DNA of 64,000 nucleotides from Clostridium algifaecis (lineage in GTDB: Bacteria; Bacillota; Clostridia; Clostridiales; Clostridiaceae): NCBI RefSeq assembly GCF_017874415.1, contig NZ_JAGGLM010000009.1, forward strand, positions 1-64,000, written 5' to 3'. Shown here in pieces: positions 81 to 19,646 of the stretch (position 1 is the first letter of the stretch; the number at the start of each line of letters is the position of its first letter). The notes under the pieces were generated by a model. The model saw nothing but the letters and a program-made list of their open reading frames with translations, had not been told where the DNA came from and searched no databases. Both the position numbers and the translations under genes were made by a program.

Positions 81-1520
81 ATGCGAAATCTCTGTGAATT
101 TAGTGCAATGCTTGTATATTTAAATAATATGATAGAAACAAACCTTATTGAAACATCCGTTATTCAAAAATTGACAAATAAATGTGAAGAATATACCTAT
201 TATCCTGGAACTAAGAAATATTCTAAATATTTATTTGGAATAAGGGATGAGGACATATATAGAAGTATGGGTAATATTGTTGATTCAATATTAAGTGGAA
301 AACTTATTCTATTTATAGATGGATTAAATGAAGCAATGGTAATTAATATTAATAAGCCTCCAGCTAGAAATATAGAAGAACCCAAAGTAGAGACCATAAT
401 TCGTGGACCAAGAGAGGGATTTACAGAATCTATAGGTGTCAACATGACTCTCATAAGGAAAAAAATCAAAAGTACAAATCTTAAAATGGAATCCTTCAAA
501 ATAGGAAGGGAAACAAGAACAGATATTGTCATTACTTATCTTTCTAATATAGCAAATCCTAAAATAATAAATGAAGTAAAAGAAAGATTAAATAAAATTG
601 ATATAGATGCAGTAATTGGTGCTAACTATATAAAAGAATATTTGATTGATGATCCTATAAGCAGCTTTCCCACCATGTTTTCTACAGAAAGGCCGGATGT
701 AGCGGCCTCTAAAATATTAGACGGTCGTATTTGCATTCTTGTAGATGGAACGCCTTTGGCTATAACCGTACCATCTCTTTTTCCAGAATTTTTAATAAGT
801 AATGAAGATTATTATCTAAGATTTATTCCAGGTACTATTAATCGCTGGATTAGATATTTATCTTTTGTATTCACACTTACTTTACCAGGATTTTATTTGG
901 CAATAACAACATTCCATCAGGAAGTTATTCCAACCCCATTACTTATTACTTTTATAAAAGCACGTTCTAGAGTACCATATTCAGCATTGTTTGAATGTAT
1001 TCTAATGTTATTAATGTATGAAATATTAAGGGAGGCAGGTATTAGAATGCCAAGAACTGTAGGTCAGGCAATGAGTGTAGTAGGTGCTTTAGTATTAGGC
1101 CAGGCTGCCGTGGAAGCAGGTATTGTAAGCGTTCCTATGGTAATTGTAATATCTGTAACTGCTATAAGTTCCTTTGCCATACCCTCCATAGAAATGTATG
1201 AAGCAGTCATATTACCTAGATTTATATTTACATTACTTGGAGGATTCTTCGGATTGTTAGGTTTAATCTGCGGCATAATAATACTATTTATGAGTCTTAT
1301 ATCCAAGCGTTCTTTTGGAGTTCCATATATGGCACCTCTTGCACCATTTATAGGAGAAGATTTTCCAGATTTGATCATAAGGCGTCCCATTTGGTTTAAA
1401 TTTAAGAGACCTCATTTTATAACAGGAAAACCTTCTTTTAAAAGAAAGCCAAAGTCACATATAAAGTCAATAAAAGAAGAACAATCAAAAGCTATTAAGG
1501 AAAAGGAAAACAAGGAGTAG
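81..1520 (+). CDS. gerKA: Spore germination receptor subunit GerKA (GerA family), apparently 5'-truncated
   Basis: This is the A subunit of a nutrient germinant receptor in the inner spore membrane, acting with the C and B subunits that follow. A soluble N-terminal half is followed by about five membrane segments from residue ~255 (RWIRYLSFVFTLTLPGF) and a basic cytoplasmic tail. Conserved GerA stretches such as SSFPTMFSTERPD and RSRVPYSALFE are present. It has 479 residues. Family members normally begin about 50 residues earlier, but an in-frame TAG at 78-80 closes the frame directly before the ATG and no ribosome-binding site is visible. It is therefore either a shortened protein or a 5'-truncated pseudogene. 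The family is certain; functionality is not. Confidence 0.85.
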   Translation: MRNLCEFSAMLVYLNNMIETNLIETSVIQKLTNKCEEYTYYPGTKKYSKYLFGIRDEDIYRSMGNIVDSILSGKLILFIDGLNEAMVININKPPARNIEEPKVETIIRGPREGFTESIGVNMTLIRKKIKSTNLKMESFKIGRETRTDIVITYLSNIANPKIINEVKERLNKIDIDAVIGANYIKEYLIDDPISSFPTMFSTERPDVAASKILDGRICILVDGTPLAITVPSLFPEFLISNEDYYLRFIPGTINRWIRYLSFVFTLTLPGFYLAITTFHQEVIPTPLLITFIKARSRVPYSALFECILMLLMYEILREAGIRMPRTVGQAMSVVGALVLGQAAVEAGIVSVPMVIVISVTAISSFAIPSIEMYEAVILPRFIFTLLGGFFGLLGLICGIIILFMSLISKRSFGVPYMAPLAPFIGEDFPDLIIRRPIWFKFKRPHFITGKPSFKRKPKSHIKSIKEEQSKAIKEKENKE

Positions 1521-1523
1521 CTT

Positions 1524-2687
1524 ATGAAAAAAATTATTTGCATTTTAATTTCAATTATAATTTCACTTTCCTTTACAGGCTGCAGAGGTTCAAAACAGGA
1601 GGTCGAAAAATTAGCAGTAGTAATGGCAATTGGTTTTGATCTTACACCTGAAAATAAATATTTAGTAACAGTACAAATACTTAACGCCCAGAAGGAATCA
1701 TCAAAAGGTGACCAGGGAAGTTCTTCACCACAGGTTATGATTTTTAGTTCTGAGGGGTACACTCCTTATGATGCCATAAGCAATCTATCTACAAAGTACG
1801 GCAGAGATCTATATTTTGGTCACAGTCAATATATTGTTATAGGCAAGCACCTGGCTGAATCTGGTTTGTCCTTGTTTATTGATTCTGCATTAAGAAGCCA
1901 TCAAACAAGAGCAGGCGATATTTTGCTCCTGGCAAAAGATAAAGCTTCAGAAGTAGTAGCATTTAAACCTATTGACGAAACAATTCCTTCTAATTCAGTA
2001 AAGAATTTAACAAAGCTCCAATCATTTAAAGGATATTCTCCTATAATTTCCAGATTAGATTTTGCTAATGCCCTGTACAGCAAGACATCATCTCCTATTA
2101 TGGGTGTAATTGATATAAATCAAAGCAGTAACATAAGTCCAACATTGAAACTGGATGGTACCGGAGTGTTTAGAAAGGATAAACTTATTGGACATTTAAA
2201 TATTAAGGAAACACGGGGGATGCAGTGGATAAAAGGCAAGGTTAAAAATGGAACTATAACAACATCTTTGCCAAATGGCAAGAAGATAACGTTTTATATA
2301 CTAGGTGCAACTAGTAAAGTAAAATCTATAATAGAAAATAATAATATAATAATTAAAGTAAATATAAAATCACAATCAAGTATATTAGAGCTTGATGATA
2401 AACTAGACACTATGAAACATCCAAAAATAATGGATGATCTAGGCAAGTTACAGAGTGAAGCTATAGAAAGAGAAGTTAATCTAGCTTTAAATGCATCACA
2501 GAAAAAATTTGATGCAGATATATTTGACTTTGGCAGCTTAATACATAGAGATTACCCTAAAGAATGGAAATCATTAGAAGGCAATTGGAATAACATTTTT
2601 CCACATATAAAAGTAGAAGTTACTGTGACCTCTAATTTAAAAAATCCAGGTACAATTTCTAAGTCCATAGATAGCAGCATAAAATAA
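1524..2687 (+). CDS. gerKC: Spore germination lipoprotein GerKC (GerAC family)
   Basis: This is the lipoprotein subunit of the germinant receptor, anchored on the outer face of the inner spore membrane. The N-terminus is a lipoprotein signal peptide: a basic start, a hydrophobic run, and the lipobox SFTGC with the acylated Cys at residue 20. The body keeps the Ger(x)C pattern (EKLAVVMAIGFDLTPENKY near the start, GHSQYIVIGKHLAESGL in the middle). Its 387 residues are normal for the family. The start lies three bases after the gerKA stop, so it is translationally linked to gerKA. The operon order is A-C-B. Confidence 0.93.
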   Translation: MKKIICILISIIISLSFTGCRGSKQEVEKLAVVMAIGFDLTPENKYLVTVQILNAQKESSKGDQGSSSPQVMIFSSEGYTPYDAISNLSTKYGRDLYFGHSQYIVIGKHLAESGLSLFIDSALRSHQTRAGDILLLAKDKASEVVAFKPIDETIPSNSVKNLTKLQSFKGYSPIISRLDFANALYSKTSSPIMGVIDINQSSNISPTLKLDGTGVFRKDKLIGHLNIKETRGMQWIKGKVKNGTITTSLPNGKKITFYILGATSKVKSIIENNNIIIKVNIKSQSSILELDDKLDTMKHPKIMDDLGKLQSEAIEREVNLALNASQKKFDADIFDFGSLIHRDYPKEWKSLEGNWNNIFPHIKVEVTVTSNLKNPGTISKSIDSSIK

Positions 2688-2706: not shown

Positions 2707-3822
2707 ATGAAAACAAAAATATCAGCTTATCAACTATTTTCTAGTATTGTTTTAGTACCTTATGGCAGCGCATTGCTTTTTTTTATAATTCCAAATGCAA
2801 AACAAGATGCATGGTTATCAATGCTTATTTATATGTTTCCTGCAATTATACTACAGATTGTATATACCTATCTCTGGAGTAAATATCCTGATGATACTAT
2901 CGTTACATATATGCCTAAGATTTTTGGAAAAATCATTGGAACTATTTTAAGTATATTGTATACAATTTTTTTTACATATGAAGCGGCAAGAGTACTGAGA
3001 GATATTGCTTCTCTTATAACAATTAATACAATGCCTAAAATGCCACTTAGTCTAACTACAGTACTTATAGTATCAACAGTTGTATGCAGTGTCCATACAG
3101 GTATAGAAAATCTTTGCAGGGCAGCACAGGTAATATTACCTATTCTAGTATTTTTCTTTATATTAGAATGGATATTTTTATTTACAACACCTAATGCTTT
3201 AAAATTTTATAATTTAAAACCTGTCCTTGAAAACGGAATACTACCTGTTATAAAAGAAGGCTGGAAGCTCATAACTTTTCCATATGGTGAGACTATATTA
3301 CTAACTATGTTATATCCATCTGTAGTTGAAAAGTCAAAGGTAAGAAAAGCTGCAATACTAGCTGTTATTTTTCAAGGAATAATCCTAACTCTAACCTCTA
3401 TAATGTTTATATCCGTACTTGGTGCAGACTTTGCGGGCACTTCACTTTTTCCACTGCTGCGAACCGTACGTTTAATGCATATAGGTGAATCCTTCGATAG
3501 GGTAGATGTATTTTTAATACTTATTATGGTAGTGGGTGGTTTTATCAAAATAAGTCTGTTTACCTATGGTGGAATGCTGGGTACTGCACAGCTTTTAAAA
3601 TTAAAAGATACAAAACATTTAGCTGTACCTTTCAGTGTAGTAATTTTAATAACATCACTGCTTATAGCTAAAAATTATACACAACATATATACATAGGTC
3701 AGGTAATAACACTATTATATGTTCATCTTCCATTAGCAATTTTTATACCTATTATTGCGTTATTACTTCAATGGATAAAAGATTTAGTTAAAAATAAAAA
3801 GAGTTGTGAAAAAAATCTGTGA
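2707..3822 (+). CDS. gerKB: Spore germination permease GerKB (GerAB family)
   Basis: This is the integral membrane subunit of the germinant receptor, an APC-superfamily permease-like protein thought to bind the germinant. About ten hydrophobic segments cover its 371 residues, beginning with QLFSSIVLVPYGSALLFF, and it ends in a short Lys-rich tail. The start at 2707 follows an AAGAGGT ribosome-binding site, 19 bases after the gerKC stop. It completes the gerKA-C-B operon. No terminator with a clear U-run follows it. Confidence 0.93.
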   Translation: MKTKISAYQLFSSIVLVPYGSALLFFIIPNAKQDAWLSMLIYMFPAIILQIVYTYLWSKYPDDTIVTYMPKIFGKIIGTILSILYTIFFTYEAARVLRDIASLITINTMPKMPLSLTTVLIVSTVVCSVHTGIENLCRAAQVILPILVFFFILEWIFLFTTPNALKFYNLKPVLENGILPVIKEGWKLITFPYGETILLTMLYPSVVEKSKVRKAAILAVIFQGIILTLTSIMFISVLGADFAGTSLFPLLRTVRLMHIGESFDRVDVFLILIMVVGGFIKISLFTYGGMLGTAQLLKLKDTKHLAVPFSVVILITSLLIAKNYTQHIYIGQVITLLYVHLPLAIFIPIIALLLQWIKDLVKNKKSCEKNL

Positions 3823-6207: not shown

Positions 6208-7446
6208 ATGAGTTTAAATGAAACACCGCGTTCTGTTAGAATACATATAGCTTTATTTGGCAGAAGAAATGCTGGAAAATCAAGTATCATAAATACAATG
6301 ACAGGTCAGGAGATAGCTATTGTATCTGATGTAGAAGGTACTACGACAGATCCTGTTTATAAATCTATAGAAATTCTTCCTATAGGGCCCTGTGTCATAA
6401 TAGATACTGCAGGACTTGATGATGAGGGCAAGTTAGGAGAACTTAGGAAAGAGAAGACCTTAAAGGTTTTAAATGAAACGGATATATCGATAATTGTGAT
6501 AGATGCGTCTATTGGGATTACAGAATACGATAGATATATAATAAAACAAATAAAAGATAAGAAAATTCCTATTATAGGTGTATTGAACAAAATTGATGAA
6601 TCAGATGTAAGCGATGATGATGCAAAAAAATTACAGAATGAGTTTAATATAAATTTTGTGAAAGTTTCAGCGGTTACGGGAAAGGGAATAAACGAATTAA
6701 AAAATGAGATTATAAATATAATGCCCAAAAGTGAAGACAAATTTAAAATAATTGGAGATTTAATAAATCCAGGTGATTTTGTAGTGCTTGTTACACCTAT
6801 AGACAAGGCAGCTCCTAAAGGAAGACTTATACTTCCACAGCAGCAGACAATAAGAGATACTCTCGAAAGTGATGCTGTTGCTGTTGTAACCAAGGAATAT
6901 GAACTTAGAGAAACTTTGGATAATCTTAAGAAGAAGCCTAGAATAGTGATTACTGATTCTCAGGCATTTTTAAAGGTTGCCGCAGACACACCTAAGGATG
7001 TTTTAATGACATCATTTTCTATATTATTTGCAAGATGCAAAGGTGATTTATTGGAACTTATAAAAGGTGTCAAGGCTGTAGAAAGGTTAAAGGATGGAGA
7101 CAAGGTATTGATAGCAGAAGGATGTACACATCATAGACAATCTGATGACATAGGAAAAGTAAAAATACCTAGGTGGATAAGGCAGATAACAGGCAAAAAG
7201 ATAGATTTTGAATATTCATCGGGTGTATCATTTACAGATGATGTAAAAAAATACTCGCTTATAGTTCACTGTGGCGCATGTATGCTGAATAGGAAAGCTA
7301 TGCTGTACAGAATTGATTCTGCAAAAAAGTTCAATGTACCTATAGTAAACTATGGAATACTTATTGCATATGTGCATGGAATACTTGATAGAGCTCTTGA
7401 ACCATTTCCACTTGCCAGGATGATATGGAAAGAAGAAAATTTATAA
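6208..7446 (+). CDS. hydF: [FeFe]-hydrogenase H-cluster maturation GTPase HydF
   Basis: HydF is the scaffold GTPase on which the 2Fe subcluster of [FeFe]-hydrogenase is assembled before transfer to HydA. The GTPase motifs are G1 GRRNAGKSS at 18-26, G3 DTAG at 66-69 and G4 NKID at 127-130. The C-terminal FeS site is C306-T-H308 and H354-C-x-x-C358, the CxH...HCxxC pattern typical of HydF. I chose the ATG at 6208 (412 residues) over an ATG at 6187 because TTGGAGGG lies just before it. It follows aspA. hydE and hydG are not in this window. Confidence 0.95.
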   Translation: MSLNETPRSVRIHIALFGRRNAGKSSIINTMTGQEIAIVSDVEGTTTDPVYKSIEILPIGPCVIIDTAGLDDEGKLGELRKEKTLKVLNETDISIIVIDASIGITEYDRYIIKQIKDKKIPIIGVLNKIDESDVSDDDAKKLQNEFNINFVKVSAVTGKGINELKNEIINIMPKSEDKFKIIGDLINPGDFVVLVTPIDKAAPKGRLILPQQQTIRDTLESDAVAVVTKEYELRETLDNLKKKPRIVITDSQAFLKVAADTPKDVLMTSFSILFARCKGDLLELIKGVKAVERLKDGDKVLIAEGCTHHRQSDDIGKVKIPRWIRQITGKKIDFEYSSGVSFTDDVKKYSLIVHCGACMLNRKAMLYRIDSAKKFNVPIVNYGILIAYVHGILDRALEPFPLARMIWKEENL

Positions 7447-7456
7447 AATTTTTAGC

Positions 7457-7485
7457 TTGACTAGTGCTATTTTCTGTATTATAAT
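7457..7485 (+). promoter_or_regulatory. Sigma-A promoter of tRNA-Trp
   Basis: TTGACT at 7457-7462, a 17-bp spacer, and a perfect TATAAT at 7480-7485, about 48 bases before the tRNA. Confidence 0.8.
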
Positions 7486-7533
7486 ATCTCTTGTCGGCAA
7501 TGGCTATTGTTAATAGTTAAAGCTTGATAATAT

Positions 7534-7609
7534 AGGGGTATAGCTCAATTGGTAGAGTAGTGGTCTCCAAAACCATTGGTTGAGGGTTCGAAGCCTTCTA
7601 CCCCTGCCA
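7534..7609 (+). tRNA. trnW: tRNA-Trp (anticodon CCA)
   Basis: The acceptor stem 7534-7540 (AGGGGTA) pairs with 7599-7605, and CCA is encoded at 7607-7609. The anticodon loop 7565-7571 carries CCA at 7567-7569, closed by a 5-bp stem. The T-arm GGTTCGA is present. Total length is 76 nt. An integrase remnant pointing at its 3' end shows that the gene has served as an insertion site. Confidence 0.97.
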
Positions 7610-7623
7610 AAAATGTTGAAACT

Positions 7624-7660
7624 AAAGGGTTTGCAAAAATGCAGATCCTTTTTTATTTTG
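7624..7660 (+). terminator. Terminator of tRNA-Trp
   Basis: AAAGGGTTTGCA at 7624-7635 pairs with TGCAGATCCTTT at 7640-7651 (12 bp with two G-U pairs), followed by a T-rich tract. Confidence 0.75.
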
Positions 7661-7694
7661 TTTTTCCATCCATAGTTTTTAATAAGCCTTTATT

Positions 7695-7850
7695 TTAATT
7701 GAATAGATCATTTAATTTATCTACTGCTTTTATTTTTTGTTCAGGCATAACATGAGTGTAAATATTAGCCGTAGTAGAAATATCTGCATGACCTAAAAGT
7801 AACTGAACTGTTTTTAACGGAACACTTCTTTCAAATAGTAATGATGTAAT
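7695..7850 (-). pseudogene. C-terminal remnant of a tyrosine recombinase (phage-type integrase)
   Basis: On the minus strand about 52 codons read ITSLLFERSVPLKTVQLLLG, then HADISTTANIYTHVMPEQ, up to a TAA at 7695-7697. This is the end of a phage-type integrase, keeping only the penultimate catalytic His (LLGH) and the nucleophilic Tyr (IYTH). A stop (TAA, 7851-7853) lies just upstream in frame, and the Arg and first catalytic boxes are gone, so it cannot be active. It converges on tRNA-Trp, the normal position of an integrase whose element used that tRNA as attachment site. Confidence 0.85.
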
Positions 7851-7854
7851 TTAG

Positions 7855-7883
7855 TTAACAGTTGTAAATTTTTATGGCATAAT
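7855..7883 (+). promoter_or_regulatory. Possible promoter of the DUF1648 pseudogene
   Basis: TTAACA at 7855-7860, a 17-bp spacer, and CATAAT at 7878-7883, about 29 bases before the GTG start. Confidence 0.5.
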
Positions 7884-7911
7884 AATAAACGGAAAATTAG
7901 GAGGACAAAGA

Positions 7912-8413
7912 GTGGAAAAAAGACCTAAAATTAAAATTCGTTATTCGATTTACGAAATAATAATAGATCTTATTAGTATTGCGGCAATAATAATAAATGT
8001 TTATTTATTATTAAAATACTATAAAGCACTTCAAAGCACTTCCAAATGTTATACCAACACATTTTAGTGGTGCAGGTGCACCTGATGGATATGGTAGTAA
8101 AAACTCTATACTCATACTTGCTGGTATAAATTTTATAATGTATATTTTTTTAACTACTTTAAGTAGATTTCCACGTATATATAATTATCTGAAACCAATA
8201 ACTAAAGAAAATGCAGAATATCAGTACAAATGTGCTAGACAATTGATTATTATAATTAAAGCAGAATTTGCAATAATTTTTACCTATGTTGGATGGAACA
8301 GTATAAAAGTTGCTTTAGAAAAAGTTAGTGGTTTAGGTATATGGTTTCTTCCAATTATTTTAGTAGTTATTTTTGGTACACTTGCAATATATATTAGAAA
8401 ATGTTTAAAATAG
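7912..8413 (+). pseudogene. DUF1648 membrane protein gene, frameshifted by a 10-bp tandem duplication
   Basis: Translation from GTG 7912 (AGGAGG at 7899-7904) gives an N-terminal membrane segment and then reaches a stop after KCYTNTF. Just before that, AAAGCACTTC is present twice in tandem (8023-8032 and 8033-8042). Removing one copy restores ...YYKALPNVIPTHF followed by SGAGAPDGYGSKNS, the LPxxIPtHF...GxpDgygsK signature of DUF1648 proteins, and the frame then runs through three more membrane segments to 8413. The downstream part (from ATG 8138) is open but lacks the signature. The DUF1648 role is unknown. Related proteins include the SdpI-type immunity factors. Confidence 0.8.
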
Positions 8414-8415
8414 TT

Positions 8416-8444
8416 TTGACACAATATTCTTTTATTGTTAATTA
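8416..8444 (+). promoter_or_regulatory. Promoter of the leader peptide and MBL-fold gene
   Basis: A perfect TTGACA at 8416-8421, 17 bp, then TAATTA at 8439-8444. A 7-bp dyad (ATTTGTA 8451-8457, TACAAAT 8463-8469) lies at the expected start of transcription and could be an operator. Confidence 0.55.
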
Positions 8445-8499
8445 AAAATCATTTGTACAGCATACAAATAAAATAGTAATTTGTAGAGAAGGTGAAGTC

Positions 8500-8556
8500 A
8501 TGAAGATATTTTTACGTATGCATCCAAGAAATCGCTTATCCTCTGTACAACTATAA
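8500..8556 (+). CDS. Short leader peptide upstream of the MBL-fold hydrolase
   Basis: This is an 18-codon open frame beginning ATG AAG ATA with a GAAGGTGA ribosome-binding site five bases before it, and ending in TAA at 8554-8556. The peptide contains the sequence PRNRL. R-x-R is the kind of motif at which macrolide-bound ribosomes are known to stall. Its last codons form the 5' arm (8540-8549) of a hairpin whose 3' arm overlaps the ribosome-binding site of the next gene. This is the geometry of erm and cat translational attenuators. Its role is inferred from that geometry, not shown. Confidence 0.6.
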   Translation: MKIFLRMHPRNRLSSVQL

Positions 8557-8575
8557 AATTATTACTGTACAGAGG
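8540..8575 (+). promoter_or_regulatory. Hairpin sequestering the RBS of the MBL-fold gene
   Basis: CCTCTGTACA at 8540-8549 and TGTACAGAGG at 8566-8575 are perfect 10-bp complements with a 16-nt loop. The 3' arm covers half of the AGAGGAG ribosome-binding site used by the ATG at 8588. The 5' arm lies inside the leader peptide frame. The same dyad could instead be a repressor-binding site on DNA. Confidence 0.7.
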
Positions 8576-8587
8576 AGTGTATATTAA

Positions 8588-9403
8588 ATGAATAGATTAA
8601 ATAAACCAGTTTTTACAAAAGAAACAATAAGAGAAATGGAAGATATGTCATCTTTCATACATGCTAAGATTTTTGATGATTTGCTAATTGTTGCACAAAA
8701 GCAAACAAACTGTTTTGTATTGAAAACAAGTGATGGGCTGATAGTAATAGATGCTATTTGGCCAGCAAAAGAAGCTTTTGAGGCAATAATAGATTCAATT
8801 AAAGATATTGGCTGGAATTCTGATACAATAAAAAAACTGGTTTTGACACATGGACACGTTGATCATACAGGATGTGGGAGATGGTTTGTTGAAAAATATC
8901 ATGTTGAGACATATCTTTCTAAAGTAGATGATATTTTCTGGAAAGAACATCCAACAAAACCTAATAGACCGGAAACGTGGAAAGATTATAAAATTGATGT
9001 TTATATTCAAAATGGTGATACCATAACATTGGGTGATAAAACAATATATGTTTATGGCACTCCTGGTCATACTCCGGGAGGATTGAGTTACATATTCCCT
9101 GTAAAAGAAGATGGGAAAATACACATGGCAGCATTATGGGGAGGCACGACACCACCATGGACAAAGAATGAAGTAAAACAATATCTCAAGTCATTGGATT
9201 ACTTTATAAGTGAAGCAATTCTTAAAAAGGTAGATGTAGCTTTAAGTAATCATACAGCTATAGATAATGGATTGGAACGTATTATGTATTCAAAAAAAAG
9301 ATTAGACTATATGCCAAATATTTATATTATCGGGCAGGATGGATTCCAAAATTATTGTCAGGTATTTCGTACATTGAGTTACGAAATGTTGGAAAAATTA
9401 TAA
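8588..9403 (+). CDS. Metallo-beta-lactamase-fold hydrolase (subclass B3-like)
   Basis: This is a zinc hydrolase with the MBL fold. The metal motif H88-G-H90-V-D92-H93 (LVLTHGHVDHTG) is intact, the third ligand His is H161 in GTPGHTPGG, and a late His (H222, LSNHT) fits the last position. The layout is closest to B3-type lactamases and related hydrolases. It has 271 residues and no signal peptide, so it is probably cytoplasmic, which argues against a classical secreted beta-lactamase. The substrate is unknown. The ribosome-binding site AGAGGAG is partly locked in a hairpin (8540-8575), suggesting inducible translation. It lies in the tRNA-Trp accessory stretch. Confidence 0.8.
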   Translation: MNRLNKPVFTKETIREMEDMSSFIHAKIFDDLLIVAQKQTNCFVLKTSDGLIVIDAIWPAKEAFEAIIDSIKDIGWNSDTIKKLVLTHGHVDHTGCGRWFVEKYHVETYLSKVDDIFWKEHPTKPNRPETWKDYKIDVYIQNGDTITLGDKTIYVYGTPGHTPGGLSYIFPVKEDGKIHMAALWGGTTPPWTKNEVKQYLKSLDYFISEAILKKVDVALSNHTAIDNGLERIMYSKKRLDYMPNIYIIGQDGFQNYCQVFRTLSYEMLEKL

Positions 9404-9446
9404 ACATAACATGAAGCAGACTTTGTATAATTAAACAATATTGAAC

Positions 9447-9484
9447 AAAAGACATATCAATTGCTGATACGTCTTTTGTTTTTA
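9447..9484 (+). terminator. Terminator of the MBL-fold gene
   Basis: AAAAGAC at 9447-9453 pairs with GTCTTTT at 9471-9477, and TATCA pairs with TGATA inside it with one mismatch between them. A T-run follows. Confidence 0.8.
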
Positions 9485-9760
9485 TATTAATTGGCATAGT
9501 TTAGCTACTTTGCTATAATGACAAGCTTGCTTATATTACTCCAAATATTAAAAAACATCTAAAATTTTATGGAGATTAGTATATGGGCAGGCAGGTCTTA
9601 TGTAATTTATACAGGTATAAAAAGCAATAAACGACTTTCTATAGATTTATAATAAAGATAAGAAATAGCTACATCACAATATTCTTACAAGGCTTATTAA
9701 TTGTAAATTTGAGATTAATGAATAATAGTAAATTAATACGTCTAAATAAAATTCTACAAT
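9485..9760. other. Non-coding gap with a possible transposase tail
   Basis: There is no convincing gene. On the plus strand, 9510-9575 reads YNDKLAYITPNIKKHLKFYG then D and a stop, which resembles the last residues of Tn3-type transposases (yitpxixxHixxfGdY), but a stop codon interrupts it just upstream. I treat it as a possible decayed fragment. The rest is AT-rich with no clear structure. Confidence 0.3.
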
Positions 9761-9768
9761 AAAGGAAG

Positions 9769-10227
9769 GTGAGTATTATAAAGAAAAACTTTATTGCAAC
9801 TTGTATCCTTTGTATAATTAGCATTTTGGTAGGAGTAGGCTGTAGTAATAAAACAGCAAATTACGAACCAACATTTAAAAATATTGGCTTGAAAACAGAT
9901 TCTACAAAAGTAAAAGAAATTTCCTATCAAATTATGAAAGAATATCTTAATGAATATAAGAAAGATACAGTATCAAAAAAAGTTAAAATCACAGATTATA
10001 CCATAAATGGTATCTATAATATAAAGGGGAATACCGACAAATTTAGTTTTTCCGTTGACTATTCTGTAAAACCATCAGAAAAACCATCCGATGAGAATTC
10101 AGGTTGGTTAGCAGGGACAGGTGATGGAGTACTAAAAGGTGATTGGGTTATAGATAAAGATGAATTTATATATGTAAATAAAGTAAACAATGAATATAAG
10201 ATTACTAGCATAGGAACTGGTCCATAA
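9769..10227 (+). CDS. Putative small lipoprotein, unknown function
   Basis: This is an exported protein of about 150 residues: a basic start (KKNF), a hydrophobic stretch, then GVGCSNK, which resembles a lipobox although the -3 position is Gly rather than Leu/Val. The mature part is polar with alternating charged strands (KVKITDYTINGIYN, DKFSFSVDYSVKP) and no motif I recognise. The start is awkward. GTG 9769 overlaps the ribosome-binding site, while the site GGAAGGTG is ideally spaced for ATA at 9778, which looks like a mutated ATG before AAGAAAAAC. Expression may be reduced. A terminator follows. Confidence 0.55.
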   Translation: MSIIKKNFIATCILCIISILVGVGCSNKTANYEPTFKNIGLKTDSTKVKEISYQIMKEYLNEYKKDTVSKKVKITDYTINGIYNIKGNTDKFSFSVDYSVKPSEKPSDENSGWLAGTGDGVLKGDWVIDKDEFIYVNKVNNEYKITSIGTGP

Positions 10228-10242
10228 ATTAAACATTTTTTA

Positions 10243-10285
10243 TAAACACTGCATTATTCAATTTTGAATTTTACAGTGTTTTTTC
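10243..10285 (+). terminator. Terminator after the putative lipoprotein gene
   Basis: AAACACTG near 10244 pairs with CAGTGTTT near 10274, with an inner ATTCAA/TTGAAT helix and a run of T afterwards. Confidence 0.75.
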
Positions 10286-10336
10286 GTCGCATTTCAAAAA
10301 ATTTATGAAGATATGGTCAAGTTTTTTATCTGAGTA

Positions 10337-10378
10337 TAGAGGTATTCTCTACAAGCTAAGTACTAGAGAGAGCTTTTT
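10337..10378 (+). terminator. Possible attenuator-like terminator with two competing hairpins
   Basis: TAGAG (10337-10341) can pair with CTCTA (10347-10351). The same central arm, extended as TCTCTA (10346-10351), can instead pair with TAGAGA (10364-10369), which is followed by GCTTTTT. The two states exclude each other. No gene with an obvious link follows directly. Confidence 0.35.
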
Positions 10379-10411
10379 AAACTAAAAAAATTTAGAAGTA
10401 AATTAATTCTA

Positions 10412-10441
10412 TTGACTTATATAAGCCAATAAATGTATTAT
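10412..10441 (+). promoter_or_regulatory. Promoter of a short presumed non-coding transcript
   Basis: TTGACT at 10412-10417, an 18-bp spacer, and TATTAT at 10436-10441. Confidence 0.55.
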
Positions 10442-10448
10442 ATTACAA

Positions 10449-10520
10449 AAGAAAACAATGCTGGTTTTCCCATAAAAACGTGGGATGTCAAGGAGTAGCT
10501 ATCCTTGACCATTTTATTTA
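10449..10520 (+). ncRNA. Candidate short RNA of about 70 nt
   Basis: A promoter ends at 10441 and a strong hairpin GTCAAGGA/TCCTTGAC (10487-10494, 10502-10509) followed by ATTTTATTT would end transcription near 10520. A second small hairpin TCCCA/TGGGA lies at about 10468-10485. No open frame with a ribosome-binding site lies inside. It could be an independent small RNA or the left end of an IS200/IS605-derived element. Confidence 0.4.
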
Positions 10521-10535
10521 TAAAATTCCTACTTA

Positions 10536-10742
10536 CAGTAAACCTCAATACTGAAATTAACGTGGATTTAGTTTCTTTAACGTTCTCCTGGCTAAAGGTT
10601 TTGGTTTACTGCTTTCAGAATTATGCAACTTTATTGAATTGTAGATTTTAGATTATAGCACACAATATAAATGCTGAAAACTTGATACAATGATAGTATT
10701 TACCACGAAGCCATCCACATCTATAGATGGTGGCAGTTCACA
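10536..10742 (+). mobile_element. Possible non-autonomous IS200/IS605-type remnant with pseudoknot-forming arms
   Basis: CAGTAAACC (10536-10544) pairs with GGTTTACTG (10603-10611), while CTGAAA (10551-10556) pairs with TTTCAG (10613-10618). The arms interleave, as in an H-type pseudoknot. Further on, GAAGCCA (10707-10713) opens an imperfect hairpin with a TCTATAGA core that closes in TGGCAGTTCAC (10731-10741). That resembles, from memory, the right ends of TnpB-carrying elements. No transposase reading frame remains. Confidence 0.35.
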
Positions 10743-10901
10743 TAAAGTAATAATATTATTATGAGCTGCACTGGCATTATGAAGGATTTTGATGCAAATT
10801 ATGAAAAGAATAGTGTTAAAATATACTGAAACAATACCTGAGATATCATATATATTATTTGTAAGAGAAATATTTATAATGGCAGAGGGAGGGTGATATT
10901 T

Positions 10902-11066
10902 ATGTATGACCAGCTGATTAGTTTAATCAGTACCGTAGGGTTCCCAATAGCAGTTAGTATATATCTCCTCGTAAGGTTTGAAAATAAGATTGATGCTATT
11001 GCTAAATCTATCCAGGACTTGAGGGCAGATATATTGGCCGTTATAAAAGAACAGAAAAAGAAATAG
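10902..11066 (+). CDS. yvrJ: YvrJ family small membrane protein
   Basis: This is a 54-residue protein with one N-terminal hydrophobic helix (LISLISTVGFPIAVSIYLLV) followed by a charged amphipathic tail (RFENKIDAIAKSIQDLR), the hallmark of the YvrJ family. The function is unknown. Many relatives are phage- or bacteriocin-associated holin-like proteins, which would fit its accessory setting. The start has a very strong GAGGGAGGG site eight bases upstream. The terminator stem begins inside the last codons. It is too short to be picked up by a length-limited gene search. Confidence 0.85.
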   Translation: MYDQLISLISTVGFPIAVSIYLLVRFENKIDAIAKSIQDLRADILAVIKEQKKK

Positions 11067-19434: not shown

Positions 19435-19646
19435 AAAGCTTTTTTATAATCCAAAATACCGCTGACTTCATTTGACACCTATCTCCCGATAGGTGGGTGT
19501 CCTCACAGATGATTCTATCACTTCCTATGACTCAAAGGTTACATATACACATCTAAATATTGAACTCCCTTTTTTATAATGTAGGTTCAAATTAAAGCCT
19601 GACGAATACCCTAGAAATTAAATTCAATTTTCAAAACTCATATTAC
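19400..19646 (-). ncRNA. ssrS: Independent structured ncRNA, 6S RNA-like in architecture
   Basis: A strong promoter (19653-19681, minus) and a terminator (19396-19434) bound a transcript of about 240 nt with no plausible reading frame. Its 5' part, TCTAGGGTATT (complement of 19605-19615), can pair with the 3' part, complement of 19450-19460, in a long closing helix rich in G-U pairs. Near the 3' end CACCTATC-GGGA-GATAGGTG forms an 8-bp hairpin capped by a GNRA tetraloop on the minus strand only, which fixes the sense. Size, closing stem and solo transcription suit 6S RNA. An IS605-type guide RNA is an alternative. Confidence 0.5.

Follow-up and report, generated by a model that had tools for sequence, protein, structure and literature searches.

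A putative drug-sensing attenuator, related to uup RNA, upstream of an MBL-fold hydrolase gene in Clostridium algifaecis

A short element that precedes the gene of an MBL-fold hydrolase in Clostridium algifaecis is very probably a drug-sensing translational attenuator of the two-arm arrest-peptide type, kin to the uup RNA, and the probable role of the hydrolase is to inactivate the drug that induces it, or a relative of that drug. The element lies in a stretch of 64,000 nucleotides, the whole of which was analysed and is referred to here as the window. An initial annotation of this DNA had proposed a macrolide-type attenuator at the same place. The attenuator reading is supported by selection on the leader frame, by retention of K/R-N-R in 26 of 28 leaders, by calculations in which a stalled ribosome opens the Shine-Dalgarno (SD) sequence of the main gene, and by kindred leaders at MATE and ABC-F genes.

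In the proposed mechanism, ribosomes that meet no drug would finish the 18-codon leader and depart, the end of the leader would pair with the segment bearing the SD, and the hydrolase gene would be off. With a drug in the exit tunnel, the ribosome is predicted to jam while adding Arg12 after K/R10-N11. The jammed ribosome would occupy the 5' arm of the hairpin, the SD would be freed and the hydrolase would be made. The element would be a compact two-arm relative of the uup RNA. Attenuation of this kind is already known as a mechanism.

Organisation of the element

The features of the element and its gene are as follows.

8416..8444, forward strand: candidate promoter, with TTGACA at 8416-8421, a 17-nt spacer and a weak -10 element, TAATTA, at 8439-8444
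8471..9415, forward strand: conserved unit of leader, hairpin and MBL gene, about 950 bp (blastn)
8487..8495, forward strand: SD of the leader, AGAAGGTGA, strong (sequence reading, alignment of relatives)
8500..8556, forward strand: leader ORF of 18 codons, MKIFLRMHPRNRLSSVQL and a stop (sequence reading, blastn, codon statistics)
8527..8535, forward strand: codons 10-12 of the leader, AGA AAT CGC, encoding R-N-R, a +X+ arrest motif, with a predicted stall that has codon 11 in the P site
8539..8549, forward strand: 5' arm of the hairpin, TCCTCTGTACA, within leader codons 14-17
8566..8576, forward strand: 3' arm of the hairpin, TGTACAGAGGA, overlapping the SD of the MBL gene
8573..8577, forward strand: SD of the MBL gene, AGGAG, with a calculated unpaired probability of 0.03 in the free RNA, rising to 0.90 when codon 11 occupies the P site
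8588..9403, forward strand: MBL-fold hydrolase, 271 aa, B3-like

Homologous loci and their spread

The MBL gene was found in 4 of 13 genus, 22 of 206 family, 6 of 391 class and 3 of 398 phylum genomes, in overlapping samples searched at E 1e-20 (genus) or 1e-60 (family, class and phylum). The genus concerned also takes in C. luticellarii. Scanning for the peptide pattern in 84,980 species, each represented by one genome, yielded 15 loci, and a pattern search of 199 phylum genomes matched the window alone. When compared by the gene plus 150 nt upstream, the 43 MBL loci reduce to 33 distinct ones. In 25 of the 33 a two-arm leader resembling the window's begins 85-95 nt upstream of the gene. At L037, L038 and L040 (67-69% protein identity) the leader lies 194-222 nt before the gene. 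Neither the covariance model nor a stem search detected a leader at L013, L022, L039, L045 and L046, and the protein of leaderless L013 is 89% identical to that of the window.

On a tree of the 33 proteins the absence of the leader needs three changes, which fits one gain and two losses. Copies from Anaerocolumna (Lachnospiraceae, a complete chromosome) and Vallitalea (a MAG) are nested inside the Clostridium group. When positions 7001-11000 of the window were compared by blastn with 42 loci, whose flanks extended 1.5 or 5 kb, similarity in the two-arm loci consisted of leader and gene, with an extra piece of at most 46 bp at 10224 in L014, L030 and L033. The aligned block starts at 8462-8490 (8519 in L019/L020 and 8443 in L041) and ends at 9379-9429. 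Since similarity is confined to roughly the leader and the gene, the unit occupies differing surroundings, and it may be read as a self-regulated gene spread by horizontal transfer.

The leader stretches tried had no counterpart in plasmid and phage collections, and a plasmid search with the MBL protein at E 1e-30 returned a single match, a 32% identical Novosphingobium sequence. The viral contig collection held no MBL copy, and PADLOC found nothing. Among ten neighbouring ORFs at seven MBL loci (of 13 with listed neighbours) there was neither a common partner nor a typical ribosome-drug resistance gene; neighbours of MBL loci include a VanZ-like protein (L014), an alpha/beta hydrolase (L019) and a Toprim/DUF3991 protein (L018). 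One genome carries three MBL copies. Anaerotignum neopropionicum has two copies, L019 and L020, on a single contig; they are separated by about 154 kb, and the stretches around them are identical over at least 10.8 kb.

The leader reading frame

The 18-codon leader at 8500-8556 with its own ribosome binding site, and R-N-R at its codons 10-12, had both been noted in the initial annotation and were confirmed. Conservation of the leader peptide and of both arms, which it had named as a check, is borne out by 28 of the 33 distinct loci, in which the leader is always found together with the hairpin. The remaining five have detectably neither, so that the case of a dyad kept without the leader frame, which would have pointed to a DNA operator, was not encountered.

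Among the 28 leader-bearing loci there are 25 different leader cores, encoding 20 different peptides. A basic residue, Lys or Arg, occupies codon 10 in all 28 (AAG in 21, AGA in 5 and AAA in 2), Asn is encoded at codon 11 in all 28 (AAT in 26, AAC in 2), and codon 12 specifies Arg in 26 (CGC in 11, CGT in 10, AGA in 2, CGA in 2, AGG in 1). K/R-x-K/R at a fixed distance from the stem is found in the same proportion, 26 of 28, and L026 and L041, two of three paralogs within one genome, have K-N-V at codons 10-12. Over codons 2-13, upstream of the stem, pN/pS is 0.25 in the leader frame and 1.53 and 1.32 in the other two frames (27 loci giving 22-23 distinct sequences, with the short leader of L019 excluded). 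Judged by these substitution patterns, the leader frame is under purifying selection and the leader is translated. The leader of L019/L020 (VPPKNRFSSIQS) lacks the first half, yet K-N-R and its spacing to the hairpin are retained.

A deletion remnant is seen at L071 (genome G021, 1485-1612, reverse strand), where 86 bp of leader region are joined directly to 44 bp from the interior of the MBL gene, and codon 12 encodes Pro.

The identity of codon 12 bears on a reading that involves no drug, in which attenuation would follow from scarce charged arginyl- or lysyl-tRNA, or from slow decoding of rare CGN codons. CGN codons are rare in low-GC Clostridia, and 21 of the 28 MBL leaders use CGC or CGT at codon 12. 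Five of the 28 nevertheless have AGA, AGG or CGA at this position, the MATE and ABC-F leaders described below have Lys codons, and the genes downstream are not amino-acid biosynthesis genes, all of which makes such a mechanism very improbable.

The hairpin and the stalled ribosome

The hairpin had been described initially as a perfect 10-bp stem whose arms are the end of the leader frame and part of the ribosome binding site of the MBL gene. The hairpin exists and its coordinates were right to within one base pair, but the stem is 11 bp long; the placement of the arms holds, the 3' arm taking in four of the five SD bases. A perfect 11-bp hairpin alone is not rare in the window, where 36 register matches with a loop of 3-25 nt were counted against a mean of 1.4 (maximum 7) in 30 Markov-1 simulations. 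The local fold is only slightly out of the ordinary (z -2.1; equally good folds arose in 11 of 200 shuffles). The element stands out from chance because leader frame, arms and spacing are retained in relatives.

Pairing of the stem is kept in 98.8% of cells, compared with 38-68% for slid versions. Covariation is thin as judged from the alignment, since the stem hardly varies: its score was equalled by 37 of 500 shuffles, and one pair is changed on both sides, in L019 only, a result equalled by 64 of 500 shuffles. At this single locus both arms change in step. L021 was considered as a further compensatory change and rejected, as it has two wobble pairs.

The effect of a stalled ribosome was calculated by stepping the P site through codons 2 to 17, with the 3' edge of the ribosome at +15, and folding the RNA downstream. 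Across the 25 two-arm loci the mean unpaired probability of the main-gene SD is 0.10 in the free RNA (range 0.01-0.40), and the stem is thus calculated to hide it. Placing the P site at codons 9, 10, 11 and 12 gives means of 0.29, 0.70, 0.88 and 0.89, respectively; in the window the value of 0.03 in the free RNA rises to 0.41 when codon 10 is in the P site and to 0.90 when codon 11 is. Codons 13-17 also open the SD (0.77-0.84), so the calculation sets the earliest effective stall and not a unique one. At L037 the SD goes from 0.01 to 0.55 at codon 11 and is closed again at codons 16-17, and the change is smaller at L038 (0.47 to 0.82) and L040 (0.51 to 0.67).

By calculation, and by comparison with ErmDL, the opening of the SD coincides with the register expected of +X+ arrest. 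It had been suggested that stalling at Arg12 would cover the 5' arm. The calculated stall geometry agrees with this, but by analogy with ErmDL the P site would hold Asn11, with Arg12 entering the A site.

The upstream region

The promoter proposed in the initial annotation fares less well. TTGACA, a perfect -35 element, is present at 8416-8421, but the claim is weak because TAATTA matches TATAAT at only two of six positions, the pair is absent from the output of the promoter scan, and upstream of 8443 the window aligned by blastn with none of the 42 loci compared, so that the region is not shared with relatives.

It may also be asked whether a repressor uses the dyad as its DNA operator, as the recurrence of TGTACA at 8454, 8544 and 8566 could suggest. 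The upstream copy, however, falls outside the block common to relatives, except in L041; the dyad is a long way downstream of the promoter candidate, its arms placed within and beyond an ORF under selection; and the arms change in step in L019, albeit at one locus. An operator is extremely improbable on this evidence.

Just upstream of the unit, at 7912-8066 and 8138-8413 of the window, are short ORFs in different frames that resemble one frameshift-broken membrane-protein gene; neither piece had a Pfam or NCBIfam match. Elsewhere in the window, at 19444-19620 on the reverse strand, is a 6S RNA (RF00013, 66.5 bits).

Relatives preceding MATE and ABC-F genes

We searched 200 family and 391 class genomes with a covariance model built from the leader. 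Among the family genomes it found 24 places at E < 0.01, 23 of them before an MBL gene and one the L071 remnant; L066 and L067 (E 0.05-0.07) were dropped as chance. In the class genomes it also found L073-L075, from other families, in which a leader reading H-P-K-N-K-L-N-S-V-Q is followed by a MATE gene. Three viral contigs from IMG/VR, L076-L078, which are probably prophages, carry a uup-type leader and a MATE efflux gene as an extra gene. In L078 the leader is at 3130-3244, and the leader-MATE pair adjoins a phage tape-measure gene; the phage shares about 82% identity with Streptococcus phage Javan105. A hairpin-only scan, in which the leader was unconstrained, returned the same three viral contigs; L083, a single contig from a G-C variant of that scan, was dropped, as no leader was seen.

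The Rfam model of uup, RF03060 (gathering score 36.8), was passed by five of the six loci given to it: L074, L075, L078 (65.8), the distant MBL relative L038 (48.3) and L073 (43.0). The window scores 16.9 bits, under the gathering score, and the two-arm relative L008 gave no gathering-level match. A search with RF03060 of 70, 37 and 35 genomes of three other families added L081, L082, L086, L087 and L088 (L080, L084 and L085 duplicate L074, L073 and L075, respectively). In 59 genomes of the window's own family the same search gave no match, but its controls gave none either, so this negative carries little weight. Read by eye in the leader frame, the Rfam consensus encodes K-L-S-S-V-Q from codon 12 onward. 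Taken together, the sequence comparisons identify the window leader as kin to the uup-type leaders.

All eight MATE ORFs exceed the cut-off of the MATE model. The three ABC-F ORFs, which are cut at the locus ends, have their best match to ribosomal-protection ABC-F proteins, at 282-287 bits against a cut-off of 380. K-N-K is present in seven of seven MATE leaders in L073-L078 and L087, while the MATE leader L082 is basic at neither codon 10 nor codon 12. Among the ABC-F leaders, L081 reads P-K-K-K-I-S-S-V-Q, with K-K-K as its +X+ motif, and L086 (V-R-K) and L088 (V-T-K) are basic at codon 12 and not at codon 10. The motif is thus found in 8 of 11 MATE and ABC-F leaders. The Rfam model leaves codon 10 outside its span; among the five leaders that came from this model only, +X+ occurs in two (L081 and L087), and codon 12 is basic in four. 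It follows that +X+ marks the MBL branch and most MATE leaders, and that a basic codon 12 is the better descriptor of uup overall.

These relatives allow a further reading to be weighed, in which the leader ORF is a bystander and uup-type RNA works as a genuine riboswitch or by binding a protein. Uup is entered in Rfam as a cis-regulatory RNA, and a 2024 review groups it with riboswitch-similar motifs (PMC11477304, in the portion available). That portion, which concerns C. difficile, gives no further evidence that uup acts as a riboswitch. The selection on the reading frame, the synonymous variation upstream of the hairpin, and a Rfam consensus that itself encodes K-L-S-S-V-Q in the leader frame all speak for a translated leader, and leave an incidental ORF highly improbable. 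On the attenuator reading there would be a testable answer to what uup RNA senses, namely a drug-blocked translating ribosome and not a small ligand bound by the RNA.

A terminator-like stem between leader and gene was found by regular expression in 10 of 10 MATE and ABC-F loci; a terminator scan with loops up to 8 missed that of L078. In equilibrium folding of nine loci (without L076) the stem has a probability of 1.00 in the free RNA and 0.78-1.00 after a simulated stall. These calculations do not support an antitermination switch in this group, as the terminator-like stem stayed formed after the simulated stall. Complementarity to the terminator loop extends over the uup loop and 3' arm, a candidate antiterminator. 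Across L073-L078, L081 and L086-L088 there are 13 pairs, including wobbles, in 8 of 10 loci, and 9 and 10 pairs in L086 and L088, with matching changes. For the Watson-Crick run alone, 10-23 of 2000 shuffles were as good in seven loci, which are close kin, and 668-1672 of 2000 in L081, L086 and L088.

The hydrolase

The MBL protein has all six B3 metal-ligand positions and a B3-like fold; H88, H90, D92, H93, H161 and H222 are invariant across 21 aligned relatives. No signal peptide was evident on reading the sequence by eye. The NCBIfam model bla_subclass_B3 scores 84.1 bits and its cut-off of 240 is not reached. B3 models overall give 84-90 bits, compared with 36 and 32 bits for the MBL-fold lactonase models AttM and AiiA.

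MBL-fold lactonases exist, and a macrolactone hydrolase is therefore possible by analogy. The excess of the B3 scores over those of the lactonase models counts, at the level of sequence, against the lactone part of this reading. The pairing of leader and gene points to an undescribed resistance enzyme, one that would probably act on the inducing drug or a relative of it. Known macrolide esterases are, in the accessible text of PMC12704417, of the alpha/beta-hydrolase type and not of the MBL fold.

The inducing drug

We infer that stalling at the leader is drug-dependent. A macrolide or ketolide as the inducing drug is plausible from the motif, and the drug class is the least certain step of the account. 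Natural ketolides exist. With ketolides, stalling takes place mainly at +X+, and in ErmDL with erythromycin +X+ is dispensable (both from the portion of PMC8298421 available).

A variant inside the preferred explanation, whose odds overlap with it, keeps the same attenuator and lets it sense pleuromutilins, lincosamides, streptogramin A or several classes, the hydrolase acting on one of them. In Clostridia, CplR, an ABC-F protein, acts on these drug classes, and ribosome stalling at an upstream ORF controls it (PMC10201436, accessible part); uup leaders precede ABC-F genes, and L086 and L088 lack +X+. The CplR upstream ORF, however, has three codons, MR[I/M] (same portion of PMC10201436), which suits drugs that halt ribosomes just after initiation. 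The motif considered here is at codons 10-12, the codons upstream of it are dispensable, as in L019, and K/R-N-R is retained, a pattern that context-specific drugs of the exit tunnel would fit better. The variant is possible, if rather doubtful.

A more ambitious joint reading would make the protein the first MBL-fold macrolide-inactivating enzyme, cytosolic and B3-like, opening the lactone and induced by its substrate through a +X+ leader. Uup RNAs would be, at least in part, drug-sensing arrest leaders joined to target protection by ABC-F proteins, efflux by MATE proteins and inactivation by MBL enzymes. In this full form the reading is unlikely.

To our knowledge such attenuators have so far been tied to rRNA methylases, ABC-F proteins, acetyltransferases and pumps. 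Neither an MBL gene under such a leader, nor the reduced two-arm form and its link to uup, was found in the literature among the matches listed, in a search whose coverage excludes most subscription journals. An attenuator joined to an MBL-fold hydrolase, and moving with it, predicts a new route of ribosome-drug destruction in anaerobes.

Comparison with known systems

Among enzymes, the nearest comparison is with the subclass B3 metallo-beta-lactamases. BJP-1 and FEZ-1 are 20-25% identical to the MBL protein, which differs from the subclass in having no evident signal peptide and in scoring 84 bits against the 240-bit cut-off. The macrolide esterases (Ere) share with the MBL protein the predicted role only, being of the alpha/beta-hydrolase type and not of the MBL fold.

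Among regulatory RNAs, uup (RF03060) has the same hairpin core and the same leader reading S-S-V-Q as the window element. Unlike uup, the window element lacks the loop GATGAA, and its 3' arm directly holds the SD. The available text of PMC11477304 ties uup to ABC-F ATPases and does not mention an MBL gene.

The gene ermD encodes a 23S rRNA methylase. Its leader ErmDL, with RLR, shares the basic-X-basic motif and the predicted stall register with the window leader, whereas the peptide differs. In stalled ErmDL the middle residue is in the P site and the second basic residue awaits the A site (PMC8298421, portion available).

The CplR upstream ORF of C. difficile likewise precedes a resistance gene controlled by stalling in Clostridia, where translational and transcriptional attenuation are combined (PMC10201436, accessible part), but its leader is the three-codon MR[I/M] without +X+.

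In layout, the window element resembles the cat-type two-arm attenuators, in which a single stem has a 3' arm that hides the SD and a 5' arm formed by the end of the leader ORF. The cat leaders are two-arm translational attenuators that respond to phenicols through other peptides.
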